Assembly: GCF_034259325.1 (NCBI RefSeq)
Contig: NZ_JAXIVS010000005.1
Location: 248,001-312,000 of the forward strand
Direction of reading: 5' to 3'
From: Hyalangium ruber
GTDB lineage: Bacteria > Myxococcota > Myxococcia > Myxococcales > Myxococcaceae
Length of the DNA: 64,000 nt
Shown: piece after piece, positions 1,875-45,532 of the stretch
Layout: the number at the start of each line of letters is the position of its first letter
Numbering within the stretch: the first letter of the stretch is position 1
Notes under the pieces: model-generated
Seen by the model: only the letters and a program-made list of their open reading frames with translations
Database searches by the model: none
Told to the model about the DNA's origin: nothing
Program-made: the position numbers and the translations under genes

Positions 1875-3338
1875 ATGCCCACCGGCTTCTCCTGGTCCGA
1901 ACTCGACATCGACTCCGCCCGCGTGCAGGTGGTGCGGGACGCGCCCCTGCCCTCCGGCCGCGACTTCGTCCTCTATTGGTGCATGGTCCACCACCGCGTG
2001 GAGGAGAACCCCGCGCTCGACACGGCCATCGCGATCGGCAACCACCTGGGGCTGCCCGTCGTCGTCTACCAGGCCCTGCGCCCGGACTACCCCCACGCCT
2101 CGGATCGCCTCCACGCCTTCGCCCTCGAAGGCATGGCGGAGCTTCCCAAGGCCTGTGCCGCCCGGGGCCTGCCGTACTGGCTGGAGCTTCCTCGCAACCC
2201 TCGGGAGCACCGGCCGCGCATCGCGGAGCTGGGCCTGCGCGCCGCGGCGGTCGTCTCGGACCTCTACCCCTCCTTCATCATCCCCGGGCACCTGCGCGGC
2301 GCGGCCAAGGCGCTGGGCGTGCCGCTGTTCGCCGTGGACGCCTCGTGCGTGGTGCCCATGCAGCGCATCGCCGAGCCCCAGGTCGGCGCGTACGCGCTGC
2401 GGCCCAAGCTCCGCAAGCTCTGGCCGGAGTACCTCGGCCGCGTCCTCCCCCCACGGCCCGTGAAGGCCGCCCGCGCCGCGAAGAAGCTCTCCCCCGACTT
2501 CGACCTCTCGGACGCGCGCGCCCTGCGCAAGGCGCTCGGCACCTTCGAGATCGACCACACGGTGCCGCCCGTGCAGGGCGTACACGGCGGGCGCGCGGCC
2601 GCGCTGAAGACGCTGGAGGCGTTCATCGAGACACGCCTGAAGGGCTACGACACCGAGCGGAACGATCCCGGCAAGGATCAGCAGTCCGGCCTGTCCCCCT
2701 ACTTCCACTGGGGCCACCTGTTCCCCGGAGAGGCCGCACGCAGGGTGCGCGAGGCGGGAGGCGAGAAGAACCCCGCCGTGCAGTCCTTCCTGGAGGAGCT
2801 GCTCGTTCGCCGCGAGCTGGCCTTCAACTACTGTTTCCACACCCCCGTGCCCCGGCAGCTCTCCGTGGACTCCCTGCCCCGCTGGGCACGCGAGACCCTG
2901 GAGACGCACCGCAAGGACAAGCGCGAGCACCTCTACTCCCTGGAGGACCTGGAGGCGGCGCGCACCGGAGACGGGCTCTGGAACGCCTCCCAGCGCGAGC
3001 TGCTCGAGCGTGGCCGCATCCACAACTACCTGCGCATGCTCTGGGGCAAGAAGATCCTCGAGTGGAGCCCCACCCCCCAGGAGGCGCTCCGGCGCATGGC
3101 CCACCTGAATGATCGCTACGCCCTGGACGGGAGGGATCCGGCCAGCGTGGCCAACTTCATGTGGGTGCTCGGCCTGCACGATCGGCCCTTCCAGGAGCGC
3201 AAGGTGCTGGGCAAGGTGCGGCCGATGAGCTCCCCCCGGACCGCGGAGAAGTTCGATCTGGGACCCTACCTGGAACGTTGGTGGCGACAGGGAGACGCCC
3301 CGGTGAAGACGCCGCGCCGCCGTACCCCCAAGAGATGA
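1875..3338 (+). CDS. phr: Deoxyribodipyrimidine photolyase, class II
   Basis: 487 residues from the ATG at 1875. The frame is open from 1791, but the ATG at 1875 has a GAGG 5 nt upstream and begins just before the first conserved block. The protein should split UV-induced cyclobutane pyrimidine dimers using FADH- and blue light. Class II features: N-terminal Rossmann-like antenna part with WCMVHHRVEEN and LPVVVYQALRPDYPHAS-type segments, and a C-terminal FAD-binding helical domain ending in the class II signature LNDRYALDGRDP ... NFMWVLGLHDRPF ... KVLGKVR. It is followed 100 bp later by the small PHA-type gene on the same strand. Photolyase fits a carotenoid-making, light-exposed soil bacterium. 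The class assignment is confident. Confidence 0.88.
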   Translation: MPTGFSWSELDIDSARVQVVRDAPLPSGRDFVLYWCMVHHRVEENPALDTAIAIGNHLGLPVVVYQALRPDYPHASDRLHAFALEGMAELPKACAARGLPYWLELPRNPREHRPRIAELGLRAAAVVSDLYPSFIIPGHLRGAAKALGVPLFAVDASCVVPMQRIAEPQVGAYALRPKLRKLWPEYLGRVLPPRPVKAARAAKKLSPDFDLSDARALRKALGTFEIDHTVPPVQGVHGGRAAALKTLEAFIETRLKGYDTERNDPGKDQQSGLSPYFHWGHLFPGEAARRVREAGGEKNPAVQSFLEELLVRRELAFNYCFHTPVPRQLSVDSLPRWARETLETHRKDKREHLYSLEDLEAARTGDGLWNASQRELLERGRIHNYLRMLWGKKILEWSPTPQEALRRMAHLNDRYALDGRDPASVANFMWVLGLHDRPFQERKVLGKVRPMSSPRTAEKFDLGPYLERWWRQGDAPVKTPRRRTPKR

Positions 3339-3438
3339 GGCTGTTGACTTCCGCGCGTCAGAAGGTGAGACGGCGGTTCCCTTCCGGTCCGGTCATCACT
3401 AAACCGGCGGGATAGACCCGCGGTCAGGAGCCAGCTTT

Positions 3439-3762
3439 ATGGGCACGATGAAGTTCGAGGTCCCCCACTCCCTTCCGAAGGACGAGGTGCGCAAGCGCGT
3501 GGAGCAACTGCTCCAGTACTGGGGCACCAAGTACGGCGTGAAGTCGGACTGGGCCGGCGAGGGCGCCCGGCTCGTTGGCAAGGTGATGGGCATCCAGCTC
3601 GATGCCAGCTTCGTCATCACCGACAAGGCCGTGCAGGGCGAGGGCACCGACCCGGGCATGCTGCTGCGCGGCCAGGCCAAGTCCTACCTGCAGAAGAAGT
3701 TCGGGGCGGTGCTGGATCCCAGCAAGAGCCTCAACGACGTGAAGGGCACCCTGGAGAGCTGA
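3439..3762 (+). CDS. Polyhydroxyalkanoic acid system family protein (small PHA-granule-type protein)
   Basis: 107-residue soluble protein with no signal peptide. Its beginning (MKFEVPHSLPKDEVRKRVEQLL), the central segment with GKVMGIQLDASFVITD, and the ending LQKKFGAVLD fit the family of small proteins annotated as polyhydroxyalkanoic acid system proteins (PF09650 type), found in genomes with PHA synthesis genes. The fold resembles a small START/Bet v1-like or ligand-binding beta sheet, but this is inference. No other PHA genes are nearby. It converges on frzF with only 8 bp between stop codons. Assignment rests on overall pattern, so the molecular role is uncertain. Confidence 0.6.
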   Translation: MGTMKFEVPHSLPKDEVRKRVEQLLQYWGTKYGVKSDWAGEGARLVGKVMGIQLDASFVITDKAVQGEGTDPGMLLRGQAKSYLQKKFGAVLDPSKSLNDVKGTLES

Positions 3763-3770
3763 GGCGCTCT

Positions 3771-5441
3771 TCAGTCCTCCAGCGCCGCGAGCGCGTAGCG
3801 GGCCACCCGGGCGATGGCTTCGGCCGAGTCCGGGATGTCCGGGTAGTGGCCCGCCAGCGGCCGCTGGGGGAAGCGCAGCTGGGCGATGGCGTTGCGGTAG
3901 CTGCGCCGCGCCCCGTCGCGATCGTTGGTGCGCTCCTGGACCTGCGCCAGCAGGTAGTGGCCGATGGCCAGCGTGGGCTCCAGGAAGAGCGCCTTGCTCA
4001 GCTCGGAGCGCGCCTCGGCGAGGTTGCCCGCCTGGAGCGCCGCCACGCCGCCGAAGACCCGGGCCTCCACGCACAGCGGCTCGCGGGCGAGCGCCTGGGC
4101 GAAGGCCTCGCGCGCCTCGGCGATCTTGCCGGTGAGCGAGAAGAGGTTGCCGAGCGTCAAGAGCGCGTCCAGGTGGCCCGGCTCATCCGCCAGCAACCGC
4201 TCCACATCCTGGATGGCCGCCGGAAAGTCGCTCTGCATCATCTTGCGCACGGCCTGGTTCAGCCGCGCGGCGGGAGGCAGCGTCTTGGCGCCACCGGGCA
4301 CCTCGGTGGCGCGCAGCACTCGCGGCTCGGGAGCTCCCACCGCGGGCATCTCCAGCGTCAGCCGCGTCGGGCGCGGAGGATCCGCCGGGAGGGCCTTGGG
4401 GTCGGAGCTGTTCCCGAGCCCCGTGCCCATCGCCAGCCGATCCCGGATCGAGGCCAGGCTCTCCGTGCCGGGCACCGCGGGGCGCGACCCCGTCGTGCCC
4501 GTATTCTCCGGCGGACGCGCCTTTGCAGCGGCTGCGGCGGCGGAGGCATTCGTCGCCGAGGAAGGCAGCGGCGCGGGCGTCGCCGTGACCGCGGGACGGG
4601 GACGCGGCTCCACCAGGGGCCGGCGGTAGACGAACGCCCCATCCACTTCGATCATCTCGAAGCGGTCATAGACCTTGAAGAGGCTCTCCGAGTAGCCCAG
4701 GAAGAGCAGCCCGCCCGGGCGCAGCGCCGCGAGGAACCGGTCCATCAGCCCACGGATGGTGGGCAGATCGAAGTAGATGATGACGTTGCGGCAGAGGATC
4801 AGGTCCAACGAGCCCTGCTGCACCATGCCATCGAAGGAGGGCGCGGCGAGGTTCATCCCATCGAAGCGCACGTACTCGCGCAGCGCGGGCAGCGCCTCCA
4901 TGCCCTCCTCCACGGGCTTGAAGAAGCGCTCGAGCCGCTCGGCGGAGATGCCCGAGGAGCGCCGCACCGAGAAGCGGCCCGCCCGGGCGGCCTCGACGGC
5001 GGCCAGGTTCAAGTCGGTGGCCAGTAGATCCACCTCCATGGCCAGCGCGCCCAGCTCCGCCATCACCATGGCCACGCTGTAGGGCTCCTCGCCGGTGGCG
5101 CAGCCCGCGGACCAGATGACCACCTTGCGGTTCTCCCGCCGCGACTTCGCCAGCAGCTGCGGGAGGATGAAGCGCTCCAGCGCCTTGAACTGCTTGGGGT
5201 CGCGGAAGAACTCCGTGTGCCCCACCGTGACGAGCGGCAGCAGCGAGCGCAGCTCCTGCTCGCCTCCCACCTCCCTCAGCCGCTGGACGTAGGCCTCGGG
5301 GTCGGTGAGCCCCAGCACGGGCATGCGCGTGGACAGGGCCAGCCGAAGGCTGTGGTAGCCGTCCGGAGTGATCTTCAGACCAGCCCGCTCCAGCAGGAGG
5401 GCGGCGAGCTGCTGCAGGGCCTTCTGGCTCACGGTCAGCAC
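3771..5441 (-). CDS. frzF: FrzF: CheR-type protein-glutamate methyltransferase with TPR tail
   Basis: 556 residues from the GTG at 5441-5439, which overlaps the frzG stop (5437-5435), so the two genes are translationally coupled. The N-terminal half (~1-270) is a CheR domain that transfers methyl from S-adenosylmethionine to glutamates of the chemoreceptor: TEFFRDP near residue 75, the AdoMet loop [13 protein letters not shown], and [13 protein letters not shown] Pro/Ala-rich linker (~280-390) leads to a tetratricopeptide-repeat tail (~400-540), as in M. xanthus FrzF, where the TPRs are reported to modulate methylation of FrzCD. Last gene of the frz operon, converging on the PHA-type gene. 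A longer in-frame start exists upstream but would lie inside frzG. Confidence 0.92.
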
Positions 5442-6445
5442 GTCTCCACCCACTCCAGCAGGGTTGCCCCAATGCGATCCAGCGGGAGGATCTCCTCCGC
5501 CGCGCCCAACTGCACCGCCTCGCGCGGCATGCCGTAGACGACGCACGTCTCCGCGTTCTGCGCGATCGTCCGCCCTCCCCGCTCGCGGATCTCCTTCAAC
5601 CCCCGTGCCCCGTCCCGCCCCATGCCCGTGAGGATGACGCCGATGCACCGCTTCCCGAAGGCCGCGCCCGCCGAGGTCAGCAGCAGATCGCACGACGGCC
5701 GGAACCCTCGCACCGGAGGCCGGGTGTCGAGCGTCAGCCGGCCGTCGGCACGGACCAGCAGGTGCGCACCCGAAGGAGCGATATAGACCGAGCCCGGCTC
5801 CATCATCTGATCGTGGAGCGCCTCATGTACCTGCAGCGCCGTCTCTGAGGCGAGCCAGTGCGCCAGCCCTTCCGTGAAGCCCTCGCTGATGTGTTGGCAG
5901 ATGCACACCGGGGCCGGGAACTGCCGGGGCAGGCCCTTGAGCACCACGGAGAGCGCCCGGGGGCCCCCCAGCGACGCGGCGATGGCCACCAGGGGAAACG
6001 GTGGCTCGGCCTCGTCCGTCGGCTGCCGCCTTCGCAGCTTGCCCTGGACGTGACGCACCACGCGCACCTGCGCCAGCATGACGAGCCGGCGCGAGGTGGA
6101 CTGCCAGAAGTCCGGGGGAGGCACCGGGAGCCGGTCCACCACGTCCAGCGCCCCGAGCGCCAGCGCCTTGAAGGCATCCGCGCGCGCCAGCATGCCGGGA
6201 TCGAGCGCGAGGATGGGCGTGGGGCACTCGTCCATCACCCGCTCGATGGCCTCCAGCGCATCCAGGGTGGTCAGGTCGATGAGCACCACGTCCGGGTTCT
6301 GCGCCCGAACCATCTCCAGGGCCTCGAGGTAGCCGCACTCGCCGGCGAGCGTGAGCGCGTCGCCGTCGAAGAGGGTGCGTGCCATCAGGCGGAGCCCTCC
6401 GCCTACCAGCACCACCCGATATGCCAGCCCTGAGGCAACGCGCAC
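5435..6445 (-). CDS. frzG: FrzG: CheB-type protein-glutamate methylesterase with degenerate receiver
   Basis: 336 residues starting at GTG 6445, 10 bp after frzE. The C-terminal domain (~150-336) removes methyl groups from chemoreceptor glutamates: nucleophile Ser158 in IAASLGG, His185 in CICQHISEG and Asp278 in [10 protein letters not shown] complete the CheB triad. The N-terminal ~105 residues have receiver-like layout with Asp57 in VVLIDLTT, but the paired acidic residues after strand 1 are replaced by VLVGGG, and the usual lysine loop reads ALDVVDRLP. Phosphorylation control is therefore doubtful. With FrzF it sets FrzCD methylation and so adaptation of the reversal signal. Confidence 0.92.
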
Positions 6446-6455
6446 GCCAACCCCT

Positions 6456-8753
6456 CTACGTCAACCGCTCGATGGTCTGGGCGAGGCTCTCCACGCCGAG
6501 CTCGCCCTTGACCAGGTACCCGTCCGCTCCTGCCTCCAGCCCGCGCCGCTTGTCCTCGGGAGAGGCCAACGACGAGAGGATGATGACGGGGATGCGCGCC
6601 ACCGCCGCGGTGGTCTTCAGCCGCCGCGTGAGCGAGAAGCCGTCCATCTTCGGCATCTGCACGTCGGTGAGGATGAGATCGTAGGTGGCGTTCTGGACCT
6701 TGGCGTAGGCCTCCTCGCCGTCCTGCGCCTCTTCCACCGAGTGGCCGAGCGCCTTGACGAGCGCGCCTTCGGTGGCGCGAGCGATGGGCGAGTCGTCCAC
6801 CAGCAGCACCTTGAGCCGCTTGGAGGCCGCCTGCTGGGTGACGGGCCTCGCCATGCGGCGCACCTCGGCCATGATGTCCGGCACGTGGCACAGCACGGCG
6901 ATGCGCCCGTCCTCCAGGGCCGCGGTGCCCGCGATGAACGGCGCGCCCTTGAGGAAGTCACCGCCGCACGGCTTGACGGCCACCTCGCGCTCGTCCACGA
7001 AGCCGTCCACCACCAGCGCCGCGTTGTCGTCGCTGTGCCGCACCACCACCGCGGGCGGCTTGTCCATGCGGTTGCCGCCGTTGACGCCCAGCAGCGGCCC
7101 CAGCGCCACCAGGGCGATGGGCTTGCCCCGGTGCTTCACCGCCAGGGTGCCGAAGACCTCCATCCGGTCCTCGGCCTTCACGCGCGTCACCGCCACCACG
7201 TCCGCGGCGGGGATGCCGTACACGTCATCGCCCAGGCGCACCAGCAGCACCTTCATCAACGCCAGCGACTGGGGCAAGCGCAGGGTGAAGGTGGCGCCAC
7301 GGCCCAGGCGGCTGGCGACTCCCACCGAGCCGCCCAGCGCCTCTACCTTGCGCTTCACCACGTCCATGCCCACGCCACGGCCCGAGATCTCGCTCACCTG
7401 GTCGCGCGTGGAGAAGCCTGGCCGGAAGATGAGATCGATCGCCTCCCGCTCGGAGAGCGCGACGGCCTGAGCCTGGGTGATGAGCCGGCGGCCGACAGCC
7501 ACCTGCTTCAACCGCTCGGGATCGATGCCCCGGCCGTCATCCTCCACCTCGATGTGGAGCATGTCGCCGTCGGCGCGGACCTTGATGCGGATGCGGCCCG
7601 CGTCGGGCTTGCCCATCTGCTGGCGGGTGTCGGGGGACTCCAGGCCGTGGTCCACCGCGTTGCGCAGCAGGTGTACCAGCGCGTCGCGCACGTCGGCGAG
7701 CATGGAGCGGTCCACGCCCAGGTCGGCGTTCTCGACGCCGAAATCGACATCCTTGCCCTGGGTGCGCGCCAGATCCCGCACCGCCCGGGGGAAGGCATCG
7801 AAGACGGTGGAGAGCGGCACCAGCCGTGCCTCCGCCACCGTGTCCGCCATCTTCGCCAGGTTGCCGTGCAGCGTGTTGATGCCGTCGTCGTTGCGGCGCA
7901 CGAAGCGGAACGCGTCGTCGCGCAGCATGTGCAGATCGCTCTCGATGCGATCCAGCTCCGAGCGCACCTCCCCATTCAGGTGGAGGTGCTCTCCCAGGCG
8001 CATGAACCGATCGCCCAGGCGCGAGAAGCGCTCGAACAGCTCTTCGGTCTCCAGGCCGCGCAGGCGGCTCCGGGCGCTCTCCACGAGCAGATCGCCCGCG
8101 AGCAGGCCCAGCGAGTCGAGCACCTCGACGTTCACGCGGATGCTGCGGTCGGCGATGGCCGTCTTCGCGGCCGCGGGCGCGGCTGGGGCCTCCTCTTCCG
8201 CCTTGGCGTGTACGGGCGCGGCCGCGGCAGCGGCCGCGAGCGCCGGTCCCGGCTCGGCCGGAGGTGGGCGAGGAGGCGAAGCCGTCTTCGCGGCCGCGGG
8301 CTCCGGAGGCAACGGGGGCGGCACGGAGGGCCGCTGCGTCACCGTCCTGCCGTTGAGCGGCGGCACGGGGTGACCGGAGGCGTCCGCGAGCGCCTTGCAC
8401 ATCTCCTCGCTGGACGGGGTGCCGGTGTGCGCGGCGGCCATATCCTCCAGCAGGTCCGACAGCACATCGCACGCGCGCAGGAGCAGATCCGTGGCCACCT
8501 CGGTGGCCGCCTTGCCCTCGCGCTCGGCGCGCAGCATGTCCTCCGCGGCGTGCGCCAGCTGGCCGATGCTGGCAAGGCCCAGCATGCGGGCCTCGCCCTT
8601 CATCGTATGCAGCTCGCGCGCGACGTCCTCCGCCGCCTGATCCGCGTGGGGTTTCTCGAGATCGAGCACCCCCAGCTGGATCTTCTGGAGTCGGTCGGCG
8701 CTGACCTCCTGGAACTTCTTCAGGAGGGATTTCTTGAGGGCCTCTGTGTCCAT
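6456..8753 (-). CDS. frzE: FrzE: hybrid CheA histidine kinase-CheY receiver
   Basis: 765 residues. Domain order: Hpt (1-110) with phosphorylatable His49 in ELHTMKGEA, the same residue number as in M. xanthus FrzE; a Pro/Ala-rich linker (~125-200); dimerisation helices; HATPase_c with N-box HLLRNAVDHG and G-boxes DDGRGID and GRGVGMDV; a CheW-like coupling domain (~490-620); and a C-terminal receiver (~640-765) with Asp697 in LILTDVQMP. It autophosphorylates in response to FrzCD and passes phosphate to output receivers such as FrzZ; its own receiver is known in M. xanthus to act as a brake on the kinase. ATG start; it sits 30 bp after frzCD and 10 bp before frzG in one operon. Confidence 0.94.
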   Translation of the reverse strand: MDTEALKKSLLKKFQEVSADRLQKIQLGVLDLEKPHADQAAEDVARELHTMKGEARMLGLASIGQLAHAAEDMLRAEREGKAATEVATDLLLRACDVLSDLLEDMAAAHTGTPSSEEMCKALADASGHPVPPLNGRTVTQRPSVPPPLPPEPAAAKTASPPRPPPAEPGPALAAAAAAAPVHAKAEEEAPAAPAAAKTAIADRSIRVNVEVLDSLGLLAGDLLVESARSRLRGLETEELFERFSRLGDRFMRLGEHLHLNGEVRSELDRIESDLHMLRDDAFRFVRRNDDGINTLHGNLAKMADTVAEARLVPLSTVFDAFPRAVRDLARTQGKDVDFGVENADLGVDRSMLADVRDALVHLLRNAVDHGLESPDTRQQMGKPDAGRIRIKVRADGDMLHIEVEDDGRGIDPERLKQVAVGRRLITQAQAVALSEREAIDLIFRPGFSTRDQVSEISGRGVGMDVVKRKVEALGGSVGVASRLGRGATFTLRLPQSLALMKVLLVRLGDDVYGIPAADVVAVTRVKAEDRMEVFGTLAVKHRGKPIALVALGPLLGVNGGNRMDKPPAVVVRHSDDNAALVVDGFVDEREVAVKPCGGDFLKGAPFIAGTAALEDGRIAVLCHVPDIMAEVRRMARPVTQQAASKRLKVLLVDDSPIARATEGALVKALGHSVEEAQDGEEAYAKVQNATYDLILTDVQMPKMDGFSLTRRLKTTAAVARIPVIILSSLASPEDKRRGLEAGADGYLVKGELGVESLAQTIERLT

Positions 8754-8783
8754 GGCCGGTTCTTGGGAAGGAGCCAGGCTCCT

Positions 8784-10028
8784 TTAGTCGGCCTTGAAGC
8801 GCTTGATGAGCTCCGCCAGACGACCGGCGAGCTGGGTGAGTTCCGCCGAGGCGCCCGTGGCCTGCTTGGAGGCCTGCGTCGTCTGCCGCGTCACGTCCTC
8901 GATCTCCGCCATGGAGGCCACCACCTGCTCGGTGGCGGTGCGCTGCTGCTGCGTGGCGAGGTTGATGACGCGCGCCGCGTCGCTCGTCTCCTGCACGCCG
9001 GCGAGGATGCCCTCGACGGACTGGGCCGCCACCGCGCCCAGCTTCTCGCCGGACTCCGTGGCCACCTTGGACGCATCCGCCGCGCTGCCCGCGGCCGCCG
9101 TGGCCTCGCGGATCTCCGTGATCAGGCTCTTGATCTCCTTGGTGGAGTCCAGGACGTTCTCCGCCAGGCGCCGCATCTCCGCGGCGACGATGGAGAAGCC
9201 CTTGCCCGCCTCACCGGCGCGGCTGCCCTCCAGCGCGGCGTTGAGCGCCAGCAGGTCCGAGCGGTCGGCGATCTCGTCGATCACCTCGACCACCGTGCCG
9301 ATGCGCTCCACGCGCTTGGACAGCTTGGTGATGGAGTCGGCCACGGCGATCCCGTCGCTGCGGATCTGCTGCATGGCCTGGATGAACTCGGCGATGGCGC
9401 CCCGACCCGAGCGCGCCGCGCCCAGCGTCTCCTCGGCCACGCGAGCCACCGCGCCCGCGTTCTCGGCGATCTGCGCCGAGGCGTGCTTGAGCTCTTCCAT
9501 CGTGGCCGTCGTCTCGTGGATGGCCGCCGCCTGCTCCGTGGAGGACGTCTCGTGCTGCGTGGAGGCCGCCAGCACCTGGTTGGCCGAGGAGGACAGCCGC
9601 AGCGTCGCCTCGTTGATCTCGCGCACGAAGGTGCGCAGCGTCTCGATCACCTTGCCGAAGCCCTCCAGCAGCGGGGCCAGCTGGGGATCCTCGGTGGTGG
9701 TGTTCCAGCGCGACAGGTCACCCTCGCGCACCAGGGCGATGAGCGCGTCCAGCGCCTGATCGATCTCCTGCGCCGCCACCTGCTTGCGGTGCTCGGAATC
9801 CGAGAAGCGATCCAGCACCTGGTTGAGCAGGTTGGCGATCTCGGCCGTCTCGCCGGTGACGATCTCCGAGGCCACGCGGGCCTGGAGGTTGCCAGCCAGC
9901 ACCGACTTGAGCGTGTCGGAGAGCGGCTTGAGTGACAGGACGTTGGTCTTGGGCGCGGCCTTGGTCGCCGCGGGCTTCTTCGCTCCGCGAGACTTGGCGG
10001 GTTTGTCGTTGGTGGTGTCCAGGGCCAT
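8784..10028 (-). CDS. frzCD: FrzCD: cytoplasmic methyl-accepting chemoreceptor
   Basis: 414 residues from the ATG at 10028; an upstream in-frame extension overlaps frzB and is rejected. There is no signal peptide or membrane segment, so the receptor is cytoplasmic, as in M. xanthus. The N-terminus is Lys/Ala-rich (PAKSRGAKK), a nucleoid-binding feature in FrzCD of M. xanthus; a HAMP-like stretch with NLLNQVLDRF follows, then a long coiled coil. The signalling tip (~residues 245-285) reads IADRSDLLALNAALEGSRAG ... GFSIVAAEMRRLAE, the kinase-contact hairpin of MCPs. Candidate methylation helices flank it. It controls FrzE through FrzA and is modified by FrzF and FrzG. Frz operon, 5 bp after frzB. 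Confidence 0.94.
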   Translation of the reverse strand: MALDTTNDKPAKSRGAKKPAATKAAPKTNVLSLKPLSDTLKSVLAGNLQARVASEIVTGETAEIANLLNQVLDRFSDSEHRKQVAAQEIDQALDALIALVREGDLSRWNTTTEDPQLAPLLEGFGKVIETLRTFVREINEATLRLSSSANQVLAASTQHETSSTEQAAAIHETTATMEELKHASAQIAENAGAVARVAEETLGAARSGRGAIAEFIQAMQQIRSDGIAVADSITKLSKRVERIGTVVEVIDEIADRSDLLALNAALEGSRAGEAGKGFSIVAAEMRRLAENVLDSTKEIKSLITEIREATAAAGSAADASKVATESGEKLGAVAAQSVEGILAGVQETSDAARVINLATQQQRTATEQVVASMAEIEDVTRQTTQASKQATGASAELTQLAGRLAELIKRFKAD

Positions 10029-10033
10029 TGCTG

Positions 10034-10420
10034 TCAGTGCCTTCCTTGAGTCTTTGCGGTTTCCAGCAGATCGATGAGCAGAACGAGGCGGGCCTGATCC
10101 AGGCACGCCCCAATGGTGTACGGCGCGGAGACGGCGGCGGGCGGAAGCCGCCGAAGGTCCGCCACGGGGATGGGGCGCACGCCGCGCACCACGTCCACCT
10201 TCAGGTGGGACTCCCCTTCCAAAGAATTGAAGACGAGCGCCCGCGTGCCGCGATGGAGCGCTCCCAGCCCAGGCACGGCGAGATCATCCGGCAGCGCGCG
10301 CTCGATGCGCAGCACCTGCGAGGCATCCACGCCGTAGACGTGCGGGCCCACCTCGAAGAAGAGGATGTCCACCTCTTCCTCCTCGGAGAGCGCGTTGGAG
10401 AGCTCGTTCTCCTGCCTCAT
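10034..10420 (-). CDS. frzB: FrzB: CheW-like coupling protein
   Basis: 128-residue single-domain CheW-like protein starting at an ATG that overlaps the frzA stop in an ATGA arrangement. It begins with an acidic stretch (ALSEEEEVDILFFEVG), followed by the two-barrel CheW-type pattern (VYGVDASQVLRIE ... RALVFNSL ... LKVDVVRG). It is shorter and more divergent than FrzA. In M. xanthus FrzB is described as lacking the kinase-binding features of normal CheW proteins and acting mainly at FrzCD; the same is inferred here from position and divergence. It lies between frzA and frzCD in the operon. Confidence 0.85.
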   Translation of the reverse strand: MRQENELSNALSEEEEVDILFFEVGPHVYGVDASQVLRIERALPDDLAVPGLGALHRGTRALVFNSLEGESHLKVDVVRGVRPIPVADLRRLPPAAVSAPYTIGACLDQARLVLLIDLLETAKTQGRH

Positions 10421-10959
10421 CGCGCCACCGCCCGCTGCCGCGCGGTCTCGAGCAGCTTGGCGAAGTTGAGCAGGTTGATGGTCTCTTCGGCCGTGGGCCC
10501 CTGGACGACGCCCAGCAGGTGCTCGGTGGCGGCGTCGGCGCCCACGGGGGGCGGAAGAATATCGGAGACGAGGATGCGCCGCAGCCCCAGCACCGTGTCG
10601 GCCAGTACCCCGGCCACGTAGCTGCCGCTGACACCCACGAAGATGCGGGTGCGCGGGAGGATGCGCGCCTCGCCCTTGGCCAGGAAGCGCAGCAGGTCGA
10701 TGACGGGCAGCACCTCACCCCGGTGACCCGTGACGCCCAGCAGGAAGGACGGGGCGCGCGGCAGAGGCGTCAGGAGCCCTGCCCGGAGCACCTCGAGGAC
10801 GTTCTCGCTGGGGACCCCCAGGCGGAGCGTTCCTACACGGAAGCAAAAGAACTCTTGCTCGGGCCGTGCTTGCGTGGTGAGGGCACGGTCCGGGGCGATG
10901 CGGAGCGCGCGTTGGAGGGGAGTTGAAGTCAAGGCGACAAAGTATCCGGAGGCGATCAA
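10417..10959 (-). CDS. frzA: FrzA: CheW-type coupling protein
   Basis: CheW-domain protein that should bridge the FrzCD receptor and FrzE kinase. The domain starts around PEQEFFCFRVGTLRLGVP and continues through LLGVTGHRGEVLPVIDL, GVSGSYVAGVLADTVLGLRR and a C-terminal LNFAKLLE helix. First gene of the leftward frz operon; its stop overlaps the frzB ATG by 4 bp. The start is unsure: no in-frame ATG or GTG precedes the domain, and the candidates are TTG codons at 10959 (180 residues) and 10932 (171 residues), neither with a clear Shine-Dalgarno sequence. A promoter-like TTGACC/GATACT pair overlaps the longer version, which favours the shorter one. Confidence 0.88.
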   Translation of the reverse strand: MIASGYFVALTSTPLQRALRIAPDRALTTQARPEQEFFCFRVGTLRLGVPSENVLEVLRAGLLTPLPRAPSFLLGVTGHRGEVLPVIDLLRFLAKGEARILPRTRIFVGVSGSYVAGVLADTVLGLRRILVSDILPPPVGADAATEHLLGVVQGPTAEETINLLNFAKLLETARQRAVAR

Positions 10960-10969
10960 AACGGGTCAA
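10941..10969 (-). promoter_or_regulatory. Candidate vegetative promoter of the frz operon
   Basis: Reading leftward, TTGACC (10969-10964) and GATACT (10946-10941) are separated by 17 nt, matching the sigma-70 layout (5/6 and 4/6 consensus). The predicted transcription start near 10934 is almost on top of the TTG at 10932. It lies in the divergent frzA/frzZ control region. Seen by eye only. Confidence 0.35.
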
Positions 10970-11061
10970 GGGGACTCGCTCGGACGCCTGCCTGCATGCC
11001 GTTTCGATGGTCCGGCGGGCACCGACAGTGTAGGGTTGTTTCTGGGTTCTTGAGGAGGCAG

Positions 11062-11916
11062 ATGTCCCGCGTATTGGTCATCGACGACAGCCCGATGCTG
11101 GTGGAGCTCACCGTGCGGGCGCTCAGCGCGGCGGGCTATCAGGCAAGCGGCGCGATGGATCTGGCCAGCCTCGAGCAGAAGCTCGCCGAGGGGCCGTTCA
11201 CGCTCATCCTGATGGACGTGAACATGCCGGAGATGTTCGGGGACGATGTCGTCGAGTACCTGCGCACCGTCAAGAAGGTCTCCGCCAAGCTGGTGCTGCA
11301 CTCGGACATCCCCGAGCAGGAGCTGGCCGGCAAGGCGCGCACTTCGGGCGCCGACGGCTACATCCTCAAGAGCGGTGGCCTGGAGGCCATGCTCGGTGAG
11401 GTGATCAAGCTCATCGGGCCCCCCACCCTCGCCCCGGCCGAGACTCCCGCCGCTACACCTACATCTGCCCCTACCCCGGCCGCCGCGACTCCCCCGGCTG
11501 CCGGGAGTCCCGCCAGTGCGAAGCCCGGGGCCCGCAAGCCGCGCATCCTGATCGTGGATGACAGCGAGATGACGGCGCGGATCATCGAGGCGGATCTGGT
11601 GACCAAGGGCTTCGAGGTCCACGTCGCCGACAACGCGGAGAAGGCGACGAAGATCATCCTCAAGAAGCAGACGCGGCCGGATCTGGTGCTGCTGGACGTG
11701 AGGATGCCGAACGTGAACGGCGAGCAGTTCTGCCGGTTCATCAAGAGCAACAGCCTCTTCAAGGGCATCAAGGTGTTGCTCTGTTCAGGAGAGAACGTTG
11801 AGGAGCTGCAGCGCATCTGCCGCGAGGCCGGGGCGGACGGCTACGTCCCCAAGGACGCGGTGATGAGCAGCCTGGTGGCCCGGGAGCTGACTCCCGCCGC
11901 CGCCGGGCAGGAGTAG
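11062..11916 (+). CDS. frzZ: FrzZ: dual-receiver output protein of the Frz pathway
   Basis: 284 residues from the ATG at 11062, which has a strong GAGGAGG 4-5 nt upstream. Two complete CheY-type receiver domains: 1-119, with acidic pair Asp8-Asp9 and phospho-acceptor Asp52 in LILMDVNMP; and ~160-284, with Asp166-Asp167 and Asp212 in LVLLDVRMP. They are joined by an Ala/Pro/Thr linker (~120-158). This architecture, and transcription divergent from frzA, are those of M. xanthus FrzZ, the main phosphate acceptor from FrzE that promotes cell reversals. There is no DNA-binding or enzymatic output domain. It ends 12 bp from the convergent lipoprotein gene. Confidence 0.93.
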   Translation: MSRVLVIDDSPMLVELTVRALSAAGYQASGAMDLASLEQKLAEGPFTLILMDVNMPEMFGDDVVEYLRTVKKVSAKLVLHSDIPEQELAGKARTSGADGYILKSGGLEAMLGEVIKLIGPPTLAPAETPAATPTSAPTPAAATPPAAGSPASAKPGARKPRILIVDDSEMTARIIEADLVTKGFEVHVADNAEKATKIILKKQTRPDLVLLDVRMPNVNGEQFCRFIKSNSLFKGIKVLLCSGENVEELQRICREAGADGYVPKDAVMSSLVARELTPAAAGQE

Positions 11917-42038: not shown

Positions 42039-43685
42039 TCAGCCGCGACGCACCAGCCCACGGCCCAGGGCCTCGGCGAGATGCGCTGGGGCGATGTCCT
42101 TCTCCGGCACCGGACCTTGGGAGAGCGAGCGCAGCACGTCAGTGAGGCGCGGTGGCACCGTCTGCACCTCCAGCCCTCCGGTACGCTTCTGGCGAACGGC
42201 GAAGCGCCAGGGCCTCGCCACCGTGCGCCGTGCCGTCTGCGCCAGCGCCTCCAGCCCGCTCACCTCCAACATGCCCCCCGCCCACGCCCGTCCCGTGAGG
42301 TGGCGACGCAAAGCGCGCGCGGCGTAGATCAACTCAGACAGATCCGCTGGGAACGTGCCCACCCGCACCGCCTCCACCAGCCCCACCTCTCCCGGTTTCG
42401 GAGGAACCACCGGCCGCTGCATCACCGAGGGCAGGAACGTCTCGAAGGAGACCGCCGCCGCCATTCCATCGTCGGGCTGCTCGCGCAGGTACCGCCGGGC
42501 GAAGGCCATGAAGGTCTGCCCCAACGAGCGCCCCAGTCCCTGGAACAGCTCTCGGAACTCCGACGAAGCGGTGAAGGTCAACAGCCCCTCGCGCGTCCCC
42601 GCCAGGAGCAGGCGGGAGATCGGAAAGTCTCGATCCAGCTGCTCGGCCACCACCGCCAGGCGGAAGCTCGTCTCCTCCTGGCTGCCCTCCACGTCATCGG
42701 CCACCACCGGTCGCCGCGCGCCATAGCCCAGATCGAATAGCTCCCAGGGTCGGCTCACGTTGCCCAGCGGCGGCGGAGGGGTCTCCACCGGCGTGAGCGT
42801 CAGGGGCTCCCTCTCCTCCAACGGCACCAACTGGCGCAGGCGCTGCAACGTGAGCATCGCCACCTCCGGCGGGTGTCCGTCCCCCTCGAAGGTGACGGCA
42901 CGCAGCGAGGTGCAGCGCGGCAGCACCTTCTCCAACATCAGGAACAGCTCCTCGCGCACCGGCTGCGTGTGGTCATCCACGTAGAAGCGGCGCGGCCCCC
43001 GGCGCGTCACCACGCCACCTGCGATGTGGAGCTCAATCACCCGGTCGAACGGGAAGCCTTCGAATCCGGCGTCCAGCGGTAGCTCCGCCGCGAGCTGGTA
43101 GCTGAGCAGGTGCCCCATGTCGATCAGCAGCGGCAGCCCGGTGCGCCCCTGCAGCCGGGCCATGAAGTCCAGCACGTGCATGTCTCCGCGCCGTGCCAGC
43201 ACCGAGGGGTTCTCCAGCGCCAACGGCACGCTCAGCCCCGCCTGCACGTGGAGCGCGTGCGCCGCGCAGTCCTGCAGGCCCTCGTTGGTCAGCGGCGGAC
43301 AGATGTAGAGGTAGCCCGGCAGCGCCTGCCCCCCCGCGTGCCACCACCCCACGTCGTTGCCCACCCAGGGACTGCCCACTTCCCTCGCGTGCGCGTCCAG
43401 ATCGGCCAGGGCCTCGCTGCTCTCGAGTTCCGGCCCATAGAGGTTGAGATGCACCGGGTGGAACAGCACCGGCACCACCTCGCGGTTCCGGTACATCTCC
43501 GGAAACAGCGAGGCGTGCTCCTTCGTCTCCGCCAGCGAGAGCGGAGCGCTGTACTCCACGAAGTCGAAGAGCTCGGGATCCTCTTGGAGCAGCCGATACG
43601 GGTGCGGCTGATCGCTGGCGCTGAGGTTGCTGCTCAGGCCAAGGCCTCGCCACGGCAGCGTCCAGGACTGGGGGGAGCGGGACAT
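42039..43685 (-). CDS. DUF692/MNIO family protein (multinuclear iron enzyme) with an unknown C-terminal extension
   Basis: 548 residues. Residues ~10-285 follow the DUF692 (MNIO) TIM-barrel pattern: FDFVEYSAP, the histidine segment LFHPVHLNLYG, VGNDVGWW, LENPSVLA, LLIDMGHLLSYQLA, ELHIAGG, and DDHTQPVREE. These hold the Glu/Asp/His metal ligands of the family, which includes enzymes (MbnB, TglH, BufB) that modify cysteines in ribosomal peptides. The C-terminal ~260 residues are unlike the short BufC/MbnC partners known to me. A Vps62-like lipoprotein gene lies 31 bp upstream on the same strand. No short Cys-rich precursor is seen, so the substrate is unknown. Confidence 0.78.
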   Translation of the reverse strand: MSRSPQSWTLPWRGLGLSSNLSASDQPHPYRLLQEDPELFDFVEYSAPLSLAETKEHASLFPEMYRNREVVPVLFHPVHLNLYGPELESSEALADLDAHAREVGSPWVGNDVGWWHAGGQALPGYLYICPPLTNEGLQDCAAHALHVQAGLSVPLALENPSVLARRGDMHVLDFMARLQGRTGLPLLIDMGHLLSYQLAAELPLDAGFEGFPFDRVIELHIAGGVVTRRGPRRFYVDDHTQPVREELFLMLEKVLPRCTSLRAVTFEGDGHPPEVAMLTLQRLRQLVPLEEREPLTLTPVETPPPPLGNVSRPWELFDLGYGARRPVVADDVEGSQEETSFRLAVVAEQLDRDFPISRLLLAGTREGLLTFTASSEFRELFQGLGRSLGQTFMAFARRYLREQPDDGMAAAVSFETFLPSVMQRPVVPPKPGEVGLVEAVRVGTFPADLSELIYAARALRRHLTGRAWAGGMLEVSGLEALAQTARRTVARPWRFAVRQKRTGGLEVQTVPPRLTDVLRSLSQGPVPEKDIAPAHLAEALGRGLVRRG

Positions 43686-43716: not shown

Positions 43717-44772
43717 TCACGCGTCGCGTAGCCAGTTCCCCTGGAACGAGGGCGTCCGTATCCCGTTCGTGATGCGGGTGCTGCCCAGCTCGCCCCACCG
43801 CGCGTTGTATTTGATGAACTGCTGGTTGTTGAGCGGCCGCGTCTTCTCGCCCACGTTGATGACGCCACCTCCCTGGAAGCCCGCCGCCGTGCCCTTGCCG
43901 CCCGCCCAGGTGAACCACCGGTAGCTGGCGTTCGTCTCGCAACTGCTGGAGCCCATGCCCACCTCCTCGATGGTGGAGTCGCAGATCTGCTCGGAGCGGT
44001 AGCTGGCGTGGCTGCCGTCGGCGATCCACACATAGGGGTGCGTCGTGTTGAACCACTGCACGTCCGCCTTCGCGAAGTAGTCCACCTTGCTGTGGTGCGC
44101 GTAATGCACGCCCGACACCGAGTAGTCCGCCGCGAGCCGCACGTTGATGTGCTCCCAGTCCGACTCATGGTTGAAGCCCGCGGGACCGTCGTTGTACGGG
44201 AAGAAGTACCAGTACTGGACATTCACTCCGCCCAGCGAGTTCTTGTACACGTGCCCGTACACCTTCCAGTCGGCGGGCGTGGTGCTGCCGTTGTGGGTGA
44301 CGTCATTCGGCGGCTGGAGGAAGAACGACTCGTTCTCGTTGAAGCCATCCCCGAACGAGTTGCGCGTCGTGCTGGTGTGCGCGCAGATCCAGTCCTTCTC
44401 GCTGTGAGAGCGATTGATCAGGTTCGTCTGTGTCACGGCGCCCAGCTCGAGGATCTGGCAGTCGGGACAATTGTCGTGATGGAAGCGCATGTGGACGCGC
44501 GACAGGTACCAATCCACGTTGGCGGGCTTCGTCCAATCGAGCGACCACGGCAGGTAGAGCACGGGCGCGTGGCGCTGCAGCAGACAGTTCTCCACCCCGT
44601 CATCCAGCCCGTCCGCATCCGCGTCCACCGAGGACTCCGCGCACCCCGCGACCAGGCGCTGCTTCGCGGTCACCCGCTCGGACTCCAGCGCGTCTTCTTC
44701 CGTGCCACCACAACCGGACACGAGCCATACACCGCTTACGACAGCGAACATCCACGCGCTTCGACGCAGCAT
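43717..44772 (-). CDS. Vps62-like lipoprotein
   Basis: 351 residues from the ATG at 44772. Signal peptide with lipobox LVSGC (around Cys20). A DADADGLDDGVENC stretch (~48-62) resembles a calcium-binding thrombospondin-type repeat. The rest has the vacuolar protein sorting 62 (DUF946) pattern: APVLYLPW, HMRFHHDNCPDCQILELG, YWYFFPYNDGPAGFNHESDWEHINVRL, YAHHSKVDYF, ADGSHASY. In fungi this domain is not enzymatically defined; bacterial members are secreted and uncharacterised. It precedes the MNIO gene by 31 bp and may share its transcript. Divergent from the methyltransferase (43 bp). Confidence 0.75.
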   Translation of the reverse strand: MLRRSAWMFAVVSGVWLVSGCGGTEEDALESERVTAKQRLVAGCAESSVDADADGLDDGVENCLLQRHAPVLYLPWSLDWTKPANVDWYLSRVHMRFHHDNCPDCQILELGAVTQTNLINRSHSEKDWICAHTSTTRNSFGDGFNENESFFLQPPNDVTHNGSTTPADWKVYGHVYKNSLGGVNVQYWYFFPYNDGPAGFNHESDWEHINVRLAADYSVSGVHYAHHSKVDYFAKADVQWFNTTHPYVWIADGSHASYRSEQICDSTIEEVGMGSSSCETNASYRWFTWAGGKGTAAGFQGGGVINVGEKTRPLNNQQFIKYNARWGELGSTRITNGIRTPSFQGNWLRDA

Positions 44773-44815
44773 CTTTCCCCTCCCGGCCGAGGGCGCGGAT
44801 GCTACACGGGAGGAC

Positions 44816-45532
44816 ATGTTCCACCGCAAGGGGCCCACGTTCTTCGAGCTGGCGCAGCAGGCGCTGTCCTCCGTCGAGCGCGGCTACGATCTGCTCGCGC
44901 CCAAGTTCGAGTACACGCCCTTCCGCACCCCGGACCCGGTGGTGAAGACGACCCTGGAACAGGTGGGTCCGCCGGGCTCCATCGATCGTGCGTTGGACCT
45001 GTGCTGCGGCACCGGCGCGGCGATGCGCTACCTGCGTCCGCTCTGCCGCCAGGAGGTGGTGGGCGTGGACCTCAGCCAGGGCATGCTCGACGAGGCGCGC
45101 CAACAACTGGCGGACGCGCCCGGGCAGGCCCGCCTCACCTTCGTCCAGGCCAACGCGCTGGAGCTGCCCTTCGAGGCCGAGTTCGACGTGGTGACGAGCT
45201 TCGGTGCCTTCGGTCACATCCTCAAGGAGGACGAGCCGCGGATGGTGCAATCCGTCGCCCGCGCGCTGCGCCCTGGAGGCCGCTTCGTCTTCGTCACCGC
45301 GCACCCACCCTCGAAGCTCCACCCCGTGTATTGGATGGCCAAGGGCTTCAACGCGGCGATGCGCGTGCGCAACGCGCTCTGGAAGCCGCCTTTCGTCATG
45401 TACTACCTGACCTTCCTCGTGCCGCGCGCCCGCGAGCTGCTCCAGGCGCACGGCTTCGAGGTGGAAGTACGTAACGGGCTCATGCCCCCACCCTTCAGCT
45501 CCTTGAGCGTCGTCATCGCCACGCGGCGGTGA
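44816..45532 (+). CDS. Class I SAM-dependent methyltransferase
   Basis: 238 residues from the ATG at 44816, which has GGGAGG just upstream. The AdoMet-binding motif ALDLCCGTGAAMRYL lies at ~60-74, then VVGVDLSQGMLDEARQQL, FVQANALELPFEAEFDVVTSFGAFGHI and LRPGGRFVFVTAHPP, as in UbiE/methyltransferase-11-type enzymes. The substrate is unknown. It is divergent from the Vps62-like gene and converges on the histidine kinase gene (4 bp between stops). The C-terminal ALWKPPFVMYYLTF segment is hydrophobic and may contact a lipid-like substrate. Confidence 0.85.
   Translation: MFHRKGPTFFELAQQALSSVERGYDLLAPKFEYTPFRTPDPVVKTTLEQVGPPGSIDRALDLCCGTGAAMRYLRPLCRQEVVGVDLSQGMLDEARQQLADAPGQARLTFVQANALELPFEAEFDVVTSFGAFGHILKEDEPRMVQSVARALRPGGRFVFVTAHPPSKLHPVYWMAKGFNAAMRVRNALWKPPFVMYYLTFLVPRARELLQAHGFEVEVRNGLMPPPFSSLSVVIATRR

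Follow-up and report, generated by a model that had tools for sequence, protein, structure and literature searches.

The gene and its distribution

The stretch of Hyalangium ruber DNA analysed here (the window, 64,000 nucleotides) carries at 42039-43685 on the (-) strand a single intact open reading frame of 548 amino acids, starting with ATG. The favoured reading of its product is a natural fusion of an MNIO enzyme to a partner of the PME type, with iron ligands of the PbsC-like type, common in one myxobacterial family. Residues 29-279 matched the MNIO/DUF692 family PF05114 with 99.8 bits against a cut-off of 25. Relatives were found at 26 loci, with best-segment identities of 56-81%. One of these (L013) was excluded from the alignment because its frame is open at the edge of the locus. 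The fusion architecture was kept in the 25 aligned loci (57-81% identity), and PF05114 was matched by 26/26 aligned members, counting the window protein. The proposal of a sequence-only reading that a DUF692/MNIO enzyme and a long C-terminal domain share one chain is borne out by the Pfam match and by the conserved architecture. When the gene was compared with five relatives, dN/dS was 0.22-0.38 for the whole gene; taken separately, the barrel gave 0.20-0.30 and the C-terminal half 0.24-0.51. The whole-gene values therefore rule against a chance frame and indicate a real gene.

To count fusions more widely, an alignment of the window protein and the 25 loci was used to search 195 Myxococcota genomes at a threshold of 1e-15. 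Matches at this level or better were obtained in 86 genomes, and the fusion was present in 76. By row count, the 76 comprise 74 genomes matching over both halves, one (G024) counted as a fusion though the gene is cut by a contig end, and one (G161) in which the match falls in two pieces within one 609-aa open reading frame. In the remaining 10 matching genomes the barrel alone was matched. All but one of the fusion genomes (75/76) lie within the family of the window, and the other (G036) belongs to the same order. Among the genomes listed, at least 20 of the family had no match; 89 further genomes were also without one. One record at a related locus (L023, BNCN01000004.1) is titled Comamonas sp. 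KCTC 72670, but with 63% identity and shared downstream genes its gene and surroundings belong with Myxococcus relatives; the title is probably wrong.

Iron ligands and predicted chemistry of the barrel

Residues 10-290 (42816..43658, (-)) were modelled as an MNIO TIM barrel, in agreement with the Pfam match. The AlphaFold2 model of the whole protein had a mean pLDDT of 80.2. Superposition of the barrel on TglH gave a Z of 25.3 over 272 aligned residues (rmsd 3.0) and on MbnB a Z of about 23; the next folds scored 16. The nearest NCBIfam models were ApyH (NF050151; 80.4 bits, cut-off 400) and BufB (NF050167; 79.6 bits, cut-off 310), both below cut-off. Four MNIO genes above the Pfam cut-off, this one included, are present in the genome of the window.

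In TglH, Fe1 and Fe2 are reported to be bound by His71, His107, Glu151, Asp184, His216 and Glu258, and Fe3 by Asp184, Asn187, Asp229 and His231 (PMC10880893). Seven of the nine TglH-type positions are identical in the window protein, namely His76, Glu158, Asp189, His220, Asp237, His239 and Glu267, with His76, which falls outside the TglH alignment, placed via 3bww and MAFFT. The other two positions are changed. Asp111 (codon 43353..43355, (-)) occupies the position of TglH His107, and His192 (codon 43110..43112, (-)) that of TglH Asn187; phmmer, hmmsearch and multiple alignment agree on both. All nine positions were invariant in 46/46 aligned fusions, identical proteins and the truncated L047 having been excluded from this alignment. 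The claim that the protein keeps the Glu/Asp/His pattern of MNIO enzymes holds for seven positions but not for two. Loss of the metal ligands, which the same reading had raised as a test of its proposal, was not found, the two positions being substituted and none lost.

The two changed positions were then read in 79 MNIOs drawn from Myxococcota genomes and plasmids. Asp/His was found in 22, His/Asn in 57 and a mixed pair in none, in a sample that is not independent: the fusions account for 13 of the 22 Asp/His proteins, L092 and L041 represent a single gene, and at least four of the His/Asn genes entered it twice. With both columns removed, the Asp/His sequences formed one clade (21 sequences, support 0.999, midpoint root), L049 having been dropped because it is partly masked. 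The 57 His/Asn MNIOs include enzymes adjoining DUF2282 bufferin genes, and the other three MNIOs of the genome of the window (L057-L059) are of the His/Asn type. L139 and L049 (G038:C34 near 58640) hold an MNIO-like frame, about 500 aa long, that has the Asp/His pair and in which partial masking hides the ligands and the C-terminus. A literature search of titles and abstracts did not find Asp/His reported as a marker of an MNIO class.

The Asp/His pair has a published counterpart. PbsC is reported to ortho-hydroxylate Phe, and its ligands were predicted with AlphaFold 3 as His97-Asp133-Glu178, His216-Asp260-His262 and Asp213-His247-Glu290 (PMC12257519). Compared through these published residue numbers of predicted ligands, PbsC and the fusion have the same ligand order and near-identical spacing, the Asp/His pair included. 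A Piscinibacter MNIO gene with the Asp/His pair has as companions genes for a carbamoyltransferase and a TfuA-like protein and a 57-aa peptide, which contains SNK and lacks the complete SNKEWQE motif. The locus resembles the std clusters, in which StdDE is reported to hydroxylate homocitrulline (PMC13174530). We propose here a PbsC/StdE-type grouping of MNIOs, defined by Asp and His aligned with TglH residues 107 and 187 respectively, in which the fusion is placed by its aligned residues.

We predict that the Asp/His pair marks hydroxylases, on the basis of the published numbers of PbsC and the context of the std-like cluster; for PbsC, StdE, ApyH, MovX, PesH and PflD the comparison drew on published descriptions. 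PesH and PflD hydroxylate Asp, reportedly without the HxD motif of iron 3 (PMC13060819), and the Asp/His pair is therefore not needed for hydroxylation. In MbnB, the iron with two His ligands is reported to bind the thiolate of the substrate Cys (PMC13419390). Replacement of His by Asp at an iron of this kind would fit a substrate that is not bound through sulphur. If the marker holds, the paired ligand change would provide a cheap sequence test separating Cys oxidation from hydroxylation of other residues, and the search for substrates would move away from Cys-rich peptides.

We judge the fusion very probably to be an active iron enzyme. By analogy, we give an even chance to the proposal that its reaction is C-H hydroxylation on a side chain other than that of Cys, a reading favoured because the Asp/His pair is also the one predicted in print for PbsC, a Phe hydroxylase. 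The main alternative is that the fused MNIO still modifies Cys, to a thiooxazole, oxazolone or similar group, in an unlinked peptide, the Asp/His pair merely tuning the cluster. Cys is the reported target of most characterised MNIOs (PMC12452194), and the seven retained ligands are those of TglH. However, the changed position is a ligand of the Fe1/Fe2 pair in TglH (PMC10880893), the Asp/His pair is also reported for a Phe hydroxylase (PMC12257519), and no Cys-rich neighbour was recognised. We regard Cys modification as somewhat unlikely, and the target of the fusion is probably not a Cys-rich peptide.

The C-terminal half and its separate counterparts

The barrel is followed by a Pro-rich linker (residues 291-310; 42756..42815, (-)), near which pLDDT is 66-74. 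In the model this leads to a mostly helical, DUF2063-like part (residues 311-490; 42216..42755, (-)) and an RRE-like, winged-helix-like end (residues 491-548; 42042..42215, (-)), all boundaries being set by eye. The C-terminal 240 or so residues gave no Pfam or NCBIfam match, and the DUF2063 Pfam signature was absent from this half in a search up to E=10. A fold search with the whole protein was filled by barrels and uninformative for the C-terminus, and the C-terminal domain was therefore modelled alone from 26 sequences (pLDDT 86.6). When this model was compared with the PDB using Foldseek, the first rank was 3dee (NGO1945, a DUF2063-RRE protein; E 9.8e-4) and the second and third were two TglI entries (E 5.2e-3 and 6.1e-3), followed by a value of 0.33. 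A second aligner, VIA, gave Z 10.8 for TglI over 207 residues (full length), Z 8.0 for 3dee over 169 residues, Z 5.8 for MbnC over 84 residues of the helical part, and Z 4.2 downwards for other proteins; the TglI and 3dee superpositions have rmsd values of 6.2-6.5, and Z below about 13 may reflect an arrangement common in helical folds.

Since three different MNIO partners top the fold list and nothing else comes close, the C-terminal domain is in all likelihood a fused MNIO partner, modelled as a helical DUF2063-like part with an RRE-like end. It had been described from sequence as an unknown domain standing in for the usual partner. The predicted structure instead has the known fold of the partner proteins NGO1945, TglI and, in part, MbnC. 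On the model, it should be read as a partner of the PME-type 2 kind, without the DUF2063 signature. The RRE-like end is near-whole in 37 of the 46 aligned fusions, partial in L133 and mostly missing from eight (465-508 aa). Leader binding by that end is thus not universal among the fusions; truncated RREs are also reported among PME-type 2 partners (PMC12452194).

In five relatives (G171, G070, G184, G185 and G186) the MNIO gene is followed by a separate partner gene, with overlapping codons. G171, from another family of the phylum, encodes its MNIO as a gene of its own, matching query residues 8-302 with 31% identity, and the ATG of the following 303-aa gene overlaps the MNIO stop codon. Gene order and overlap are the same in the other four, in three of which the frame is open further upstream and the start was placed at the overlap by choice. 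In BLAST comparisons the partners of G070, G184, G185 and G186 clustered together, with that of G171 outside. In the tree as drawn, the fusions adjoin the G171 MNIO, and the simplest history would therefore be a single joining of the two frames at such an overlap. Comparison of single sequences gave no match between the fused domain and the split partners. Comparison of profiles for the fused domain and the five split partners gave E 0.016 with a probability of 2.9% over 67 columns, which is only suggestive of one sequence family.

These results bear on a further alternative, in which the C-terminal half is no partner but a helical/winged-helix module of unrelated kind, directed for instance at DNA or another protein, and the true partner is separate and unlinked. 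The lack of a sequence-family match, the weak profile similarity to the split partners, and the moderate Z and high rmsd would all fit such a module. Against it, the top fold matches are all MNIO partners with nothing else near, and split relatives have a partner gene at that exact place. We consider an unrelated module improbable, and retain the fused partner as the preferred reading.

Several other features were noted at loci with related MNIOs. Downstream of the G171 split pair (L091 9080-15076) are genes for two secreted proteins rich in Cys (39 and 138 residues); the proteins end with a hydrophobic stretch and an Arg-rich tail, which we take to resemble the ends of MYXO-CTERM proteins. 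A small CxxC protein, heavy-metal-associated-like by eye, is encoded divergently from the split Asp/His MNIO of G070 (L094 6778-7152). A Streptomyces europaeiscabiei plasmid (L174, NZ_CP109155.1) carries at 2722-11422 a cluster that encodes a nitroreductase-YcaO protein, LuxE and LuxC homologues and a 533-aa MNIO, which has the Asp/His pair and is extended at its C-terminus. A 53-aa open reading frame in this cluster has four FPFR repeats and resembles a multi-core precursor; as a speculation, LuxE/LuxC might turn a C-terminal carboxylate into an aldehyde by reduction. Profile comparison gave no match for the extension of this Streptomyces MNIO, and this second case is therefore an extension of unproven identity.

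Gene neighbourhood, proposed mechanism and known systems

The gene 31 bases upstream of the fusion (43717-44838, (-), the same strand) encodes a protein described from sequence as a Vps62-like lipoprotein. A lipobox-like VSGC is visible, but no Pfam or NCBIfam match was obtained up to E=10. As a candidate substrate this protein was rejected, being common to one other locus only (L006), at a different distance. Downstream in the window lies a convergent trypsin-PPC protein. The conserved neighbours of the fusion are ordinary genes. They encode a uridine kinase and an alpha/beta hydrolase, both named by eye, together with a PQQ-repeat protein and an HTH-Mrr protein, two of the set being assigned by Pfam from L137. 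The families most frequent downstream, counted over the window and 26 loci, were the PQQ protein (22/27), an unnamed protein (21), the hydrolase (18), the HTH-Mrr protein (13) and the uridine kinase (12, with an antisense frame called instead in 11).

To look for a precursor, open reading frames of at least 60 aa were clustered across the window and the 26 loci, and no precursor recurred near the homologues. Ten loci were also scanned by eye for frames of at least 60 aa and a set of 15 for frames of at least 45 aa; frames of at least 30 aa were compared around seven loci with a separate MNIO only. The claim that no short Cys-rich precursor adjoins the gene agrees with this, none being recognised in the window or relatives by a crude caller that dropped the MNIO itself at some loci in this high-GC DNA and that a short precursor could escape. 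The suggestion that both substrate and partner may be new survives in part: no adjoining precursor is recognisable, but the fold of the partner is the usual one. Given that the Asp/His pair is predicted for PbsC, and that none of the 57 His/Asn MNIOs sampled has it, looking for Cys-containing peptides is probably the wrong approach. A StdA-type substrate was also considered and rejected, exact DNA encoding NKEWQE being absent from 60/60 genomes, in a search that variants would escape. Antoine et al. likewise suspect that proteins are the targets of some MNIOs that lack a recognisable peptide (PMC12452194).

In several genomes an operon for a MacAB-TolC-like exporter lies upstream. In a 60-genome panel, the gene of a MacB-like permease lies upstream of the fusion at no more than 1 kb in 8/21 fusion genomes, 11-51 kb away on the same contig in 10/21 and on another contig in 3/21. 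The five genes of the operon in G020 match the OEP, HlyD, ABC and two MacB families, and TolC-HlyD-ABC-MacB-MacB-like operons end just 5′ of the fusion in L130 (188-5980), L137 (9859-15700), L129, L131 and L132. In other genomes the operon and the fusion seem to have been parted by an insertion of 11-51 kb. It could be supposed that the fusion belongs to a peptide-export system whose product exits through this exporter, as the close permeases and the G020 operon would suggest. However, permeases of 60-70% identity occur in fusion-free genomes such as G010, G012, G017 and G021, and three fusion genomes have the exporter on another contig. The exporter is thus not dependent on the fusion and was rejected as a specific part; we consider this alternative very unlikely. 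Least probable of all, by a little, is a regulatory pseudo-enzyme competing for partners or substrates: PesX shows that MNIO-like pseudo-enzymes exist (PMC13060819) and two ligand positions are unlike TglH, but all nine hold metal-binding residue types without variation in the aligned fusions, PesX is reportedly without iron-binding residues (PMC13060819), and PbsC, with the same predicted ligand set, is active (PMC12257519).

The preferred reading is a one-chain holoenzyme, in which an iron oxygenase barrel would carry a peptide-recruiting partner fused at its C-terminus. The partner half would dock on the barrel roughly in the way that TglI docks onto TglH. Where present, the RRE-like end may hold a recognition segment of the substrate, whose gene would lie elsewhere in the genome, and feed one substrate residue to the iron cluster. 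Where MbnB has an iron site with two His, the fusion would have His76 and Asp111, as predicted for PbsC, and the reaction would most likely be hydroxylation of a non-Cys C-H bond using O2 and a reductant. For the joint claim, a single-chain holoenzyme that has a fused partner, is active and hydroxylates a non-Cys C-H bond, we put the chances a little short of even. A broader reading, which we think unlikely, is that Asp/His and His/Asn mark two mechanistic classes of MNIO, non-Cys C-H hydroxylases and Cys oxidases, with the Myxococcaceae fusion as a cluster-free member of the first class acting in trans on a cellular protein or an unlinked peptide. If it were true, MNIO chemistry would reach beyond dedicated RiPP clusters.

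About 14,000 MNIOs have been counted (PMC12452194). Most are reported to work only with a partner, and a fusion was engineered because the pair binds weakly (PMC13419390). The natural fusion seems to give a fixed 1:1 stoichiometry, and it occurs in culturable myxobacteria. Natural MNIO fusions of other kinds (MovX, PflD and ChrH) and the engineered HvfBC are already known. A search of titles and abstracts did not find a natural MNIO-PME fusion reported; a single-chain MNIO with a full partner has no earlier report in the literature searched, and it is built like the known MNIO holoenzymes.

The closest parallel is PbsC/PbsD, of biphenomycin-like peptides (BipEF in a study made in parallel). 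As described, this system shares with the fusion an MNIO barrel with a predicted Asp/His pair and a required RRE-containing partner, but its partner is separate and its cluster contains precursors, an arginase and a radical SAM enzyme, whereas the fusion has its partner on the same chain and no recognisable cluster. The Piscinibacter MNIO of the std-like cluster likewise has the Asp/His pair, but StdD/StdE are reported with a separate partner, a dedicated cluster and a homocitrulline substrate (PMC13174530). TglH/TglI and MbnB/MbnC share the folds of both barrel and partner; they are reported as two chains acting on Cys substrates, with His/Asn in place of Asp/His (the Asn/His positions being read for TglH).

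The PME-type 2 partners, as described, have a helical part with a full or truncated RRE and lack the DUF2063 signature, as does the fused half, but they are encoded by separate genes after the MNIO gene (PMC12452194); here the partner is fused, and it is separate in the five split relatives. MovX, PflD and ChrH are natural MNIOs with an extra domain on the chain, but that domain is reported to be a winged-helix/RRE only in MovX, a nitroreductase in PflD and of another, uncharacterised kind in ChrH. The engineered HvfBC has the MNIO followed by the partner on one chain, in the order found here; unlike the natural fusion, it is man-made, with a bufferin-type partner and a Cys substrate (PMC13419390).
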